Below the pieces are notes generated by a model, which did no database searches, was not told the origin of the DNA, and saw nothing but the letters and a program-made list of their open reading frames with translations. Of a DNA stretch of 64,000 bases, positions 25,775 to 28,712 are shown one piece after another. Origin of the DNA: Anaeropeptidivorans aminofermentans (lineage in GTDB: Bacteria; Bacillota; Clostridia; Lachnospirales; UBA5962); NCBI RefSeq assembly GCF_940670685.1, contig NZ_OW711693.1, positions 2,976,001 through 3,040,000 on the forward strand, in the 5' to 3' direction. Position 1 is the stretch's first letter, and each line of letters starts with the position of its first letter. The position numbers and the translations under genes were made by a program.

Positions 25775-26110
25775 TTATCCAACATTACTGCCCTCGATAG
25801 CCTCAAGAATGCTCTGACATAAAAGAAGCATATTGGATATCGTAACCTTATCCGAATTCAAATAATAAAAGTTCATTGTACCTTTTTTATACATGTAAAC
25901 AATCCCTGCTTCACGCAGTACTTTAAGATGATGAGAAACAGCAGGGCGGGAAAGATTGGTTTTTTCAGTAAGGGCTCCTACACGCATTCCAGCCGCCCCT
26001 CCTTCCATGAGCGCTATAACAATAGATTGCCGCGTTTCATCTCCCACAGCTGCTATTACTTTTGAACACTTAGAAAATAACTCCCTAAGTTTTGTCAAAT
26101 CTTGTGACAT
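25775..26110 (-). CDS. ArsR-family winged-helix regulator
   Basis: 111 residues. A small winged helix: G-D-E-T-R-Q-S-I-V-I-A-L, L-S-R-P-A-V-S-H-H-L-K-V-L-R-E-A-G-I-V (recognition helix), then the wing K-K-G-T-M-N-F-Y-Y-L. No obvious cysteine metal-site pair is seen, so the signal may not be metal. The start at 26110 follows GGAGCGG at good spacing; the upstream reading from 26149 begins inside the likely operator. It precedes the ABC exporter cluster and probably controls it; that link is inference. Confidence 0.87.
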   Translation of the reverse strand: MSQDLTKLRELFSKCSKVIAAVGDETRQSIVIALMEGGAAGMRVGALTEKTNLSRPAVSHHLKVLREAGIVYMYKKGTMNFYYLNSDKVTISNMLLLCQSILEAIEGSNVG

Positions 26111-26126
26111 AACAACCGCTCCATTC

Positions 26127-26150
26127 AATGGTTTAATTATATCAACCATT
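26127..26150. promoter_or_regulatory. Likely operator of the ArsR gene
   Basis: An inverted repeat AATGGTT, 10 bases, AACCATT, lying beside TATAAT-like boxes on the minus strand just upstream of the ArsR start. Autoregulation is typical for the family. Confidence 0.45.
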
Positions 26151-26351: not shown

Positions 26352-26397
26352 TATCATCATTGTCTTTTTTAGGGCAAAATTTTAAAGGGGTGAACGT

Positions 26398-27570
26398 ATG
26401 CTATTGCTTAAAAACTGCCTCCTTTCCAATATGGCGGACATATGGGAAGAAGAGACCGCCATTCTCATTGAGAATGGCAAAATCAAAGAAATAGGCAAAA
26501 ACTTAAATGCTCCCGATGCAGAAGTAATAGATGCTAAAGGACGCATAGTTACACCGGGGCTTATCGACAGTCACTGTCATACAGGAACCGAGGATACGGG
26601 AACAGATGCCGCAGGCGATGTAAACGAAACAACGAACCCTGCCCTTGCCGGCCTTCGTATCATAGATGCACTTCATTTTTACGACAAATCTTTTGAAACA
26701 GCCCTTAGAACAGGGGTTACAACCGTTGTTACAGGCCCGGGAAGCGCCAATATCATAGGCGGAACCTTTGCCGCAATAAAAACCTATTACGGAGATCTCA
26801 ACCAAAGGGTAATTAATCCTGAAATATGCATGAAAATGGCATTGGGAGAAAACCCAAAATTAAACTACGGAAAGCGCTCAAAGGCCCCGTCTACAAGAAT
26901 GATGAATGCAGCCATTATGAGAGAACAGCTTTTTCTTGCAAAGCAGTACAGAGAAAAATGGCTTGAATATAACGAAAAAATAGAAAAGGGAGAAAATCCC
27001 CCTGAATTTAAGTTTGATATACATAAGCATTCCTTAATGCGTGTTTTTGACGGTATGCTTGTTAAAATACACTGCCATCAATCAGACGATATTATTACGG
27101 CCATGAGAATCGCATCGGAATTTAATTTAAGATATACCCTTGACCACTGCACAGAGGGCTATCTGATTACAGATGAGCTTAAACAGTATAATCCCATGTG
27201 CATCTTAGGCCCTGTTTTCGGCGGTAAAAGCAAGCTTGAGCTTAGAAGTAAATCCTTTAAAGGGGCCGGCATATTAGAAGAAAACGGTATTTTCTTCTCC
27301 ATAGCAACAGACCACCCTGTAATCCCCCACGATACTCTTTTAATTCAGGCGGCTCTTATGGTTAAAAACGGCCTTTCAAGAAAAGCGGCTCTGAAAGCCC
27401 TTACTGTAAACGCAGCTATCAGTACGGACATTGCCGACAGAGTAGGAACCATAGAACCGGGCAAAGACGCAGACATCGTAATATGGCAGGAAGACCCTAT
27501 TTTATCCGTAGGAGATCCTGAAATGGTTATCATAGACGGTGAGATACGCTATCAAAGGGGGGAACAATAA
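26398..27570 (+). CDS. Amidohydrolase (metal ligands intact)
   Basis: 390 residues of the amidohydrolase superfamily, closest in layout to imidazolonepropionase/dihydroorotase-like enzymes. The metal site is complete: His59 and His61 in TPGLIDSHCHTG, a histidine in KIHCHQSDD, another in TLDHCTEG and the Asp in SIATDHPVI. A C-terminal G-T-I-E-P-G-K-D-A-D-I-V-I-W block is the composite beta domain. The start has AAAGGGGTGA. It overlaps the next gene by one base. The reaction (likely a cyclic amide or deacylation) cannot be fixed from sequence. Confidence 0.88.
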   Translation: MLLLKNCLLSNMADIWEEETAILIENGKIKEIGKNLNAPDAEVIDAKGRIVTPGLIDSHCHTGTEDTGTDAAGDVNETTNPALAGLRIIDALHFYDKSFETALRTGVTTVVTGPGSANIIGGTFAAIKTYYGDLNQRVINPEICMKMALGENPKLNYGKRSKAPSTRMMNAAIMREQLFLAKQYREKWLEYNEKIEKGENPPEFKFDIHKHSLMRVFDGMLVKIHCHQSDDIITAMRIASEFNLRYTLDHCTEGYLITDELKQYNPMCILGPVFGGKSKLELRSKSFKGAGILEENGIFFSIATDHPVIPHDTLLIQAALMVKNGLSRKAALKALTVNAAISTDIADRVGTIEPGKDADIVIWQEDPILSVGDPEMVIIDGEIRYQRGEQ

Positions 27571-28712
27571 TGAAGCTCATTAAAAACTGCCGATTAATCG
27601 ATATGGCAGGCACCTATATGGAAAAAAGAGATATGCTCATAGAAGACGGGAAAATAAAAGACATTCAGCCTGAAATTTCAAAAGAAGGCATAAGCCCTGA
27701 AAATATATACGACGCAGAAAATAACGTAGCTGTTCCGGGATTTATTGATATCCACTGCCAGGCAGGGGTAACAAGCCAGATTTACCGTTTTGAAGGAGAC
27801 GACGCCAACGAGGTATCCGGCCCGATGCTCCCCCATTTAAGGGCAATAGACGCCATAGATATCCATGACGAAGGCTTTAACATGGCCCTTTTAGGCGGCG
27901 TTACAACAGTAATTGCAAGCCCGGGAACGAAGAATGTTCTTGGCGGAACCTGTACTGCGTTTAAAACCTCTGGAAAAAGCTTTAAAGAAAGAACCCTCAT
28001 CGAAGAAATCGCCTTTTTTGCAGACCTTACAAGCGCCCCCAGAAATGTATACGGTAAAAAGGATATTGCGCCTAAGACCCGTATGGCCTCCGCTTCTATT
28101 TTAAGAGAAGCCCTTTTTAACGCAAAGGAATACCACAGGGCTAAAAATACCGGAAGCTTATCTAATTTCGATATGAAAATGGAGTCTCTCCAAAGAGTAT
28201 TTGACGGCATGCTTCTTAAAATCCACGCAGAGCATTCTACGGATATTATAACTGCCGCAAGACTTTTAGAAGAATTTAATTTAAACGGAATCATCGTCGG
28301 AGCAAGCGATATTTTAGAGGCCCTTCCCCATCTCAATAAAGAAAATACAAAGCTTGCTATAGGCCCTGTCCTTGTAAGCATAGATGGTTACGAAAGCAGA
28401 AACAAAAGCCCTGAAACCGGCGCAAGGCTTCAAGATGAAAATATTAATTTTGCGGTTATTACAGCCCATCCATCCTATAATATTGAATATACCAACGTAC
28501 AGCTTGGCTATATGAAGAAAAGGGGTATGAAGAATCCTCTTGAAGCTTCTACCATAATCCCCGCCAAAATGCTTGGTATTGACAATAGAGTAGGAAGCCT
28601 TGAAATAGGCAAAGATGCAGATATTGTATTATGGGATAAAGAACCCCTTGATTTTTATGCTTCCGTAAAAGAGATATTTATTAACGGGGAAATTGTAAAT
28701 ATTATTCATTAA
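27570..28712 (+). CDS. Amidohydrolase-like paralogue with lost metal ligands
   Basis: 380 residues, clearly a paralogue of the upstream protein (same blocks in the same order, such as PGFIDIHCQAG, GGVTTVIASPGTKN, KIHAEHSTDIITAARL and S-L-E-I-G-K-D-A-D-I-V-L-W). Yet the HxH pair is His62-x-Gln64, the third histidine region reads I-I-V-G-A-S-D with no His, and the Asp strand reads A-V-I-T-A-H-P. Three or more metal ligands are therefore missing. It starts within the upstream stop (TAATG), so the two are translated together. A non-catalytic partner subunit is a sensible inference; no decay (stops, shifts) is seen. Confidence 0.8.
   Translation: MKLIKNCRLIDMAGTYMEKRDMLIEDGKIKDIQPEISKEGISPENIYDAENNVAVPGFIDIHCQAGVTSQIYRFEGDDANEVSGPMLPHLRAIDAIDIHDEGFNMALLGGVTTVIASPGTKNVLGGTCTAFKTSGKSFKERTLIEEIAFFADLTSAPRNVYGKKDIAPKTRMASASILREALFNAKEYHRAKNTGSLSNFDMKMESLQRVFDGMLLKIHAEHSTDIITAARLLEEFNLNGIIVGASDILEALPHLNKENTKLAIGPVLVSIDGYESRNKSPETGARLQDENINFAVITAHPSYNIEYTNVQLGYMKKRGMKNPLEASTIIPAKMLGIDNRVGSLEIGKDADIVLWDKEPLDFYASVKEIFINGEIVNIIH

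Follow-up and report, generated by a model that had tools for sequence, protein, structure and literature searches.

A coupled pair of amidohydrolase paralogues, one lacking most metal ligands, and similar tandem pairs in related bacteria

Why would a bacterium keep, directly behind an intact metal-dependent hydrolase gene, a second copy that lacks most of the metal site? The question is raised by two adjoining genes in a 64,000-nucleotide stretch of the Anaeropeptidivorans aminofermentans genome (contig NZ_OW711693.1, positions 2,976,001 to 3,040,000), called the window here; coordinates are counted from its first letter. ORF A (26398–27570, plus strand, 390 aa) carries a full set of amidohydrolase metal ligands, and ORF B (27570–28712, plus strand, 380 aa) is its paralogue with a predicted dead metal site; both assignments draw on the ORF calls, Pfam and alignment. 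Both proteins match PF01979 and PF07969 above cut-off, with PF01979 scores of 77.7 bits for A and 47.5 bits for B against a curated cut-off of 25, and the Pfam match of B runs mostly through its C-terminal part. The two are 40% identical and share the same nearest solved structure by sequence, 3ooq (E 2.5e-72 for A and 1.5e-51 for B), which we take to come from Thermotoga maritima. AlphaFold2, with an alignment limited to A and B, gave models too poor to use (pLDDT of 31 for B and 40 for A).

The two genes are joined as tightly as the first-pass annotation had claimed. The TAA stop of A (27568–27570) and the ATG start of B (27570–27572) share one base in the sequence TAATG (27568–27572), and B has a Shine-Dalgarno-like stretch of its own, aaagggggg, within the 3′ end of A (27554–27562); a similar stretch, aaaggggtg, lies 5′ of A (26384–26392). 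Both the overlap and the coupling of B to A are thus borne out. Third-position GC is 0.38 and 0.40 for the two ORFs, so that B resembles A in this respect. A scan from 26100 to the start of A gave no promoter-like site on the plus strand and was uninformative. Upstream, a gene for an ArsR-type regulator (Pfam HTH_5; 25775–26149, minus strand) is divergent from A across a gap of 248 bases and could control either side.

The alignment of A and B places the difference between them at the metal site. In A, the ligand set is complete: H59 and H61 of the β1 HxH motif (H59-C-H61, codons 26572–26580), K146 in β4 (26833–26835), H225 in β5 (27070–27072), H250 in β6 (27145–27147) and D305 in β8 (27310–27312). 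The roles of the His and Asp columns are those that we presume from general knowledge of the amidohydrolase superfamily, not from coordinates. The residues of B at the same six columns are H, Q, F, H, G and A, so that four of the six ligands are gone: H62-C-Q64 replaces HxH (27753–27761), F150 stands at the place of K146 (28017–28019), H219 keeps the β5 His (28224–28226), G244 takes the place of the β6 His (28299–28301) and A299 that of the β8 Asp (28464–28466). The features read from the letters alone, namely HxH, two later His and the Asp in A, and HxQ, no β6 His and Ala for Asp in B, all reappear in the alignment columns. A therefore has the ligands of a catalytic-type amidohydrolase and B keeps only the equivalents of H59 and H225; unlike B, 3ooq keeps the ligand motifs in its alignments to both proteins. 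Of the six assignments, K146 as a presumed bridging Lys is the weakest, because the Lys at this column is kept by 8 of 12 dead relatives (described below).

To place these losses against the background of the family, we defined 39 conserved columns, each at least 97% conserved in 83 family representatives (less than 80% mutual identity, out of 108). A retains 38 of them and B 31; the losses of B, in A numbering, are H61Q, S116T, K146F, G150T, E151S, H250G, G297N and D305A. The GEN of the GENP loop is gone as well; like the loss of the Lys and the retention of the first and β5 His, this goes beyond what the first-pass annotation mentioned. B has lost 4 of 6 ligand columns versus 4 of 33 other conserved columns (Fisher p = 0.011), and 3 of 5 versus 5 of 34 if K146 is dropped as a ligand (p = 0.049). 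In the alignment, loss in B is concentrated at the metal site beyond chance. The first His and the β5 His are retained, the latter followed directly by Glu and His (HAEH), and because the H59 and H225 equivalents persist with these residues nearby, residual metal binding by B is possible.

Is B an isolated case? We collected members of the family from related genomes, 133 at an earlier stage and 162 later. The sample is non-random, since a locus entered it through a match to A, B or a profile, A1, built from B and four dead members, some rows of which include residues upstream of the likely start. The 162 members are a part of the matches listed, the list of the phylum search having been drawn at E ≤ 1e-85; the large genome searches scored four to five first-look candidates per genome, so that members may have been missed, and the samples overlap. 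Within this collection, 144 of 162 members have all six ligands (HHKHHD) and 4 are incomplete through contig ends or a broken reading, with ligands at the sites seen except for one position of the broken one. Ligands are missing from the remaining 14, which are B and a further 13 from 11 genomes in 9 families (G428, G757, G642, G490, G620, G397, G767, G1012, G1042, G970 and G910, the last with three genes). We refer to these 14 as dead and to ligand-bearing copies as live.

Every one of the 14 dead members adjoins a live copy on the same strand. Their neighbours are complete in 12 cases and partly seen in two (G397 and G910:C69). The three dead genes of G910 (L233, L234 and L235) all have live neighbours, and one of its contigs reads live–dead–live. 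Tandem duplication need not bring a dead member, as G1070 carries a row of three directly adjoining copies, all complete (L237:7793–11327).

In the tree of collected members, rooted on a canonical member, the 13 dead relatives form a clade, 13 live neighbours form its sister clade, and no other members fall within either. These 26 pair members do not include the partner at G910:C69, which is too short, and two of the live copies, both from G910, flank one and the same dead gene. A 48-row tree supports the dead clade at 100/100 and the live clade at 98/96. Distances among dead genes correlate with those among their live partners (r = 0.866, Mantel p = 5e-5, 11 pairs), a correlation to which shared species history contributes. 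The dead and live genes of these relatives were apparently inherited together. Three comparisons of dead genes gave dN/dS values of 0.010/0.138 (0.07), 0.185/1.17 (0.16) and 0.25/2.09 (about 0.12, with dS saturated), and their live partners gave about 0.07, 0.28 (one partner being broken in the assembly) and 0.09; two further comparisons lacked a usable dS. Constraint is not clearly weaker in the dead genes than in their live partners, the values lying in the same range.

In these old pairs the order is dead gene, then live gene, and at the junctions of seven pairs the two genes overlap by up to 10 bases or lie up to 2 bases apart. Oligopeptide ABC transporter genes adjoin 9 of the 13 pair loci, of which 7 are backed by Pfam (SBP_bac_5, oligo_HPY or permease) and two, L095 and L158, by similarity alone. 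Pfam places oligopeptide-type components at L093, L094, L096, L103, L157, L216, L232 and L241; the automatic label 'OppDF' is a looser guide, as it also falls on an unrelated ABC ATPase beside the window pair. No transporter genes were seen on the contigs of G1042 and on three contigs of G910, all of them short. In three genomes a gene for an M14 zinc carboxypeptidase lies directly 5′ of the dead and live pair (L216:9016–10440, L232:6088–7494 and L158:6488–7912; identified by Pfam for two and by similarity for the third).

The relatives of B itself are more distant. The window genome (3.76 Mb, one contig) has five close family members including A and B; the other three are 40–44% identical to A and lie apart from the pair and from each other. 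Matches to B at E ≤ 1e-25 occur in 185 of 391 genomes of the class and 71 of 392 of the order. Among the matches listed there is no close orthologue of B, the best being 40% identical, and 2 of 6 genomes of the same family, other than that of the window, have a member at this level. Six exact 8-residue peptides of B, compared with one genome each of 84,980 species, a set from which the window's own genome may be absent, gave one weak match and no near relative. A plasmid search returned 7 records of at most 38.1% identity, and the viral contigs searched gave no match.

Did B arise within the old dead clade, or did it lose its ligands separately? Three trees group A with B inside the canonical set (support 91/91, 92/91 and 92/94), as does the tree of collected members, and the first tree left the positions of both unresolved; the grouping is not conclusive because the A and B branches are both long. 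Other features set the window pair apart. Its order, live then dead, is the reverse of that in the pair clade. B retains H225, D231, P272 and E281, which are lost in 12, 10, 12 and 11 of 12 dead members, respectively. No importer lies near the pair in the 20–36 kb part of the window, where the nearby transport genes are an opposite-strand ABC ATPase and a large membrane protein, exporter-like by inspection. From these sequences we propose, with moderate confidence, that the window pair represents a second, independent origin of the live and dead design. A stronger version, which we hold at somewhat less than even odds, is that an obligate two-part enzyme, one half of it metal-dead, has evolved from a tandem duplicate of this family at least twice independently. 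The ancient event would have given the co-inherited pairs that are spread over several families of the phylum and linked with the import of peptides; the other, in the window lineage, would have given a pair in the opposite order.

B may instead have branched early from the dead clade and changed less than its other members, with no independent loss of its own. In approximately unbiased (AU) tests a placement of B with the dead clade is not rejected (p = 0.29, 0.27 and 0.32), nor is one that joins both A and B to the complete pair clade (p = 0.44). Further, at 14 columns where the dead and canonical consensus differ, B has the dead-type residue at six (93, 150, 251, 312, 339 and 372) and the canonical one at three, the canonical set of this comparison still containing the live partners except for one sequence. 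Against this stand the trees that set B beside A, the four residues that B keeps and most dead members have lost, and the AU test of A with the live clade, which is disfavoured and not rejected (p = 0.116, then 0.064). We regard such a shared origin as rather unlikely and two origins as the preferred history.

What, then, does B do? The best explanation, to which we give a probability of about 0.6, is that catalytic A and non-catalytic B act as a heteromer. A and B would be co-translated products of an old duplication in an amidohydrolase family whose closest known structure is 3ooq. A would be the metal hydrolase of the pair, probably acting on a substrate of the amide or peptide type. The sequence pattern of the family is still present in B, most of the metal site and the adjacent loop being gone; B has probably lost hydrolase activity as well and would assemble with A as a non-catalytic partner, where it might stabilize A, shape or complete the pocket of A, or bind an effector in its own empty site. 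The first-pass annotation had implied a catalytic plus non-catalytic heteromer from the two genes alone and had proposed a check of whether the second protein always occurs with the first; run in the relatives, this check found all 13 other dead members beside a live copy, two of those copies being partly seen, and by analogy supports the pair. Several points weigh against a heteromer: the window pair is live then dead and has no importer beside it, the recurring pairs being dead then live and mostly importer-linked, B may still bind some metal, and the three complete copies of G1070 show a tandem array with no dead member.

A heteromer has to be weighed first against the reading, mentioned as an option in the same annotation, that B is an enzyme in its own right with changed chemistry, using another metal or none, with the kept His and new pocket residues. 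Two original His are in place and the HAEH stretch adds a Glu and a His to the second of them. Metal-free catalysis occurs within the amidohydrolase superfamily, LigI being an example. B has nevertheless lost four of six ligand columns together with the GEN of the GENP loop, and among its dead relatives the β5 His is absent from 12 of 12 and the first His from 10 of 12, a pattern that fits loss and not rebuilding. We consider a rebuilt enzyme improbable.

Less probable again is a role for B as a binding or regulatory protein apart from A, its closeness to A reflecting shared expression and no complex. In favour of this, the three other close members of the window genome stand apart from each other and from the pair. 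The pairing of every collected ligand-lacking member with a ligand-bearing one speaks against it, as does the co-divergence of the dead and live clades. A heteromer of A and B accordingly stays our working reading in comparison with both of these alternatives.

A and B differ at about 226 of 374 aligned residues, and about 141 of the amino-acid differences fall on the B branch, given the share of B in the tree path. Judged by its reading frame B is not a decaying copy, because unconstrained change would be expected to put about 6.8 stop codons on its branch, which has none (P about 0.001); the earlier impression that B showed no sign of decay thus gains a quantitative, if indirect, footing. 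Decay would account for the missing catalytic residues and the long branch, but we regard it as very improbable in view of those absent stop codons, a full-length ORF, an intact Shine-Dalgarno stretch and overlap, the 31 retained conserved columns and a third-position GC like that of A. Catalysis may have been lost late in the history of B, and B as a maintained, non-catalytic partner of A is the reading carried forward here.

Dead homologues that serve an active enzyme are known, and the comparison shows where the present pair differs. CRMP/DRP proteins have a dihydropyrimidinase-like fold, are oligomeric and are not known to be catalytic; they resemble in this the role proposed for B, but are neuronal signalling proteins and not operon partners of an active hydrolase. 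To our knowledge, the well-studied pairs of an enzyme and its dead paralogue are mainly eukaryotic. A Pseudomonas aspartate transcarbamoylase requires an inactive pseudo-dihydroorotase for activity (PMC7053772); the latter, like B, is a dead homologue of an amidohydrolase-fold enzyme, but its partner is an unrelated transcarbamoylase, whereas that of B is its own paralogue A. Two further cases are the deoxyhypusine synthase of trypanosomatids, whose activity increases 3000-fold with a dead paralogue (PMC3663545), and the AdoMetDC prozyme, a dead paralogue that activates the trypanosomatid enzyme in a complex (PMC5201418). Both combine an active enzyme with a dead paralogue, as proposed for A and B. 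They are other enzymes of eukaryotic parasites, not products of bacterial overlapping genes, and the complex of A and B is a proposal from sequence.

The suggestion that such a pair is undescribed holds in part. No description of a live and dead amidohydrolase pair of this type appears among the open-access papers listed by our searches, and the terms 'subunit' and 'heterodimer' are absent from a preprint of 2026 about bile salt hydrolases of the amidohydrolase type; pairs of a catalytic and a non-catalytic protein are, as a kind, already known. What stands out is how strictly dead members are paired with live ones in this sample, together with a design that may have arisen twice. A bacterial family in which every collected metal-dead member sits beside a live one would offer a system for asking why dead halves persist; an annotation can readily pass over such a pair as two ordinary amidohydrolases. 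Should the link to importers prove sound, these pairs may point to a step, as yet unassigned, in how peptides or cyclic amides are used.

Three observations concern members of the family outside the pairs. Near non-tandem members at 10 loci (L105, L112, L159, L161, L165, L174, L175, L187, L189 and L193) lies a tsaE gene with a TsaD/TsaB-like group, for which Pfam identified one TsaE and one TsaD; these are tRNA t6A genes. One member has an open frame of 587 aa, compared with the usual length of about 390 (L168:3996–5759). Finally, a lone paralogue in the window genome, 40% identical to A, heads a row of oligopeptide-type ABC transporter genes on the same strand (L096:1359–8411).
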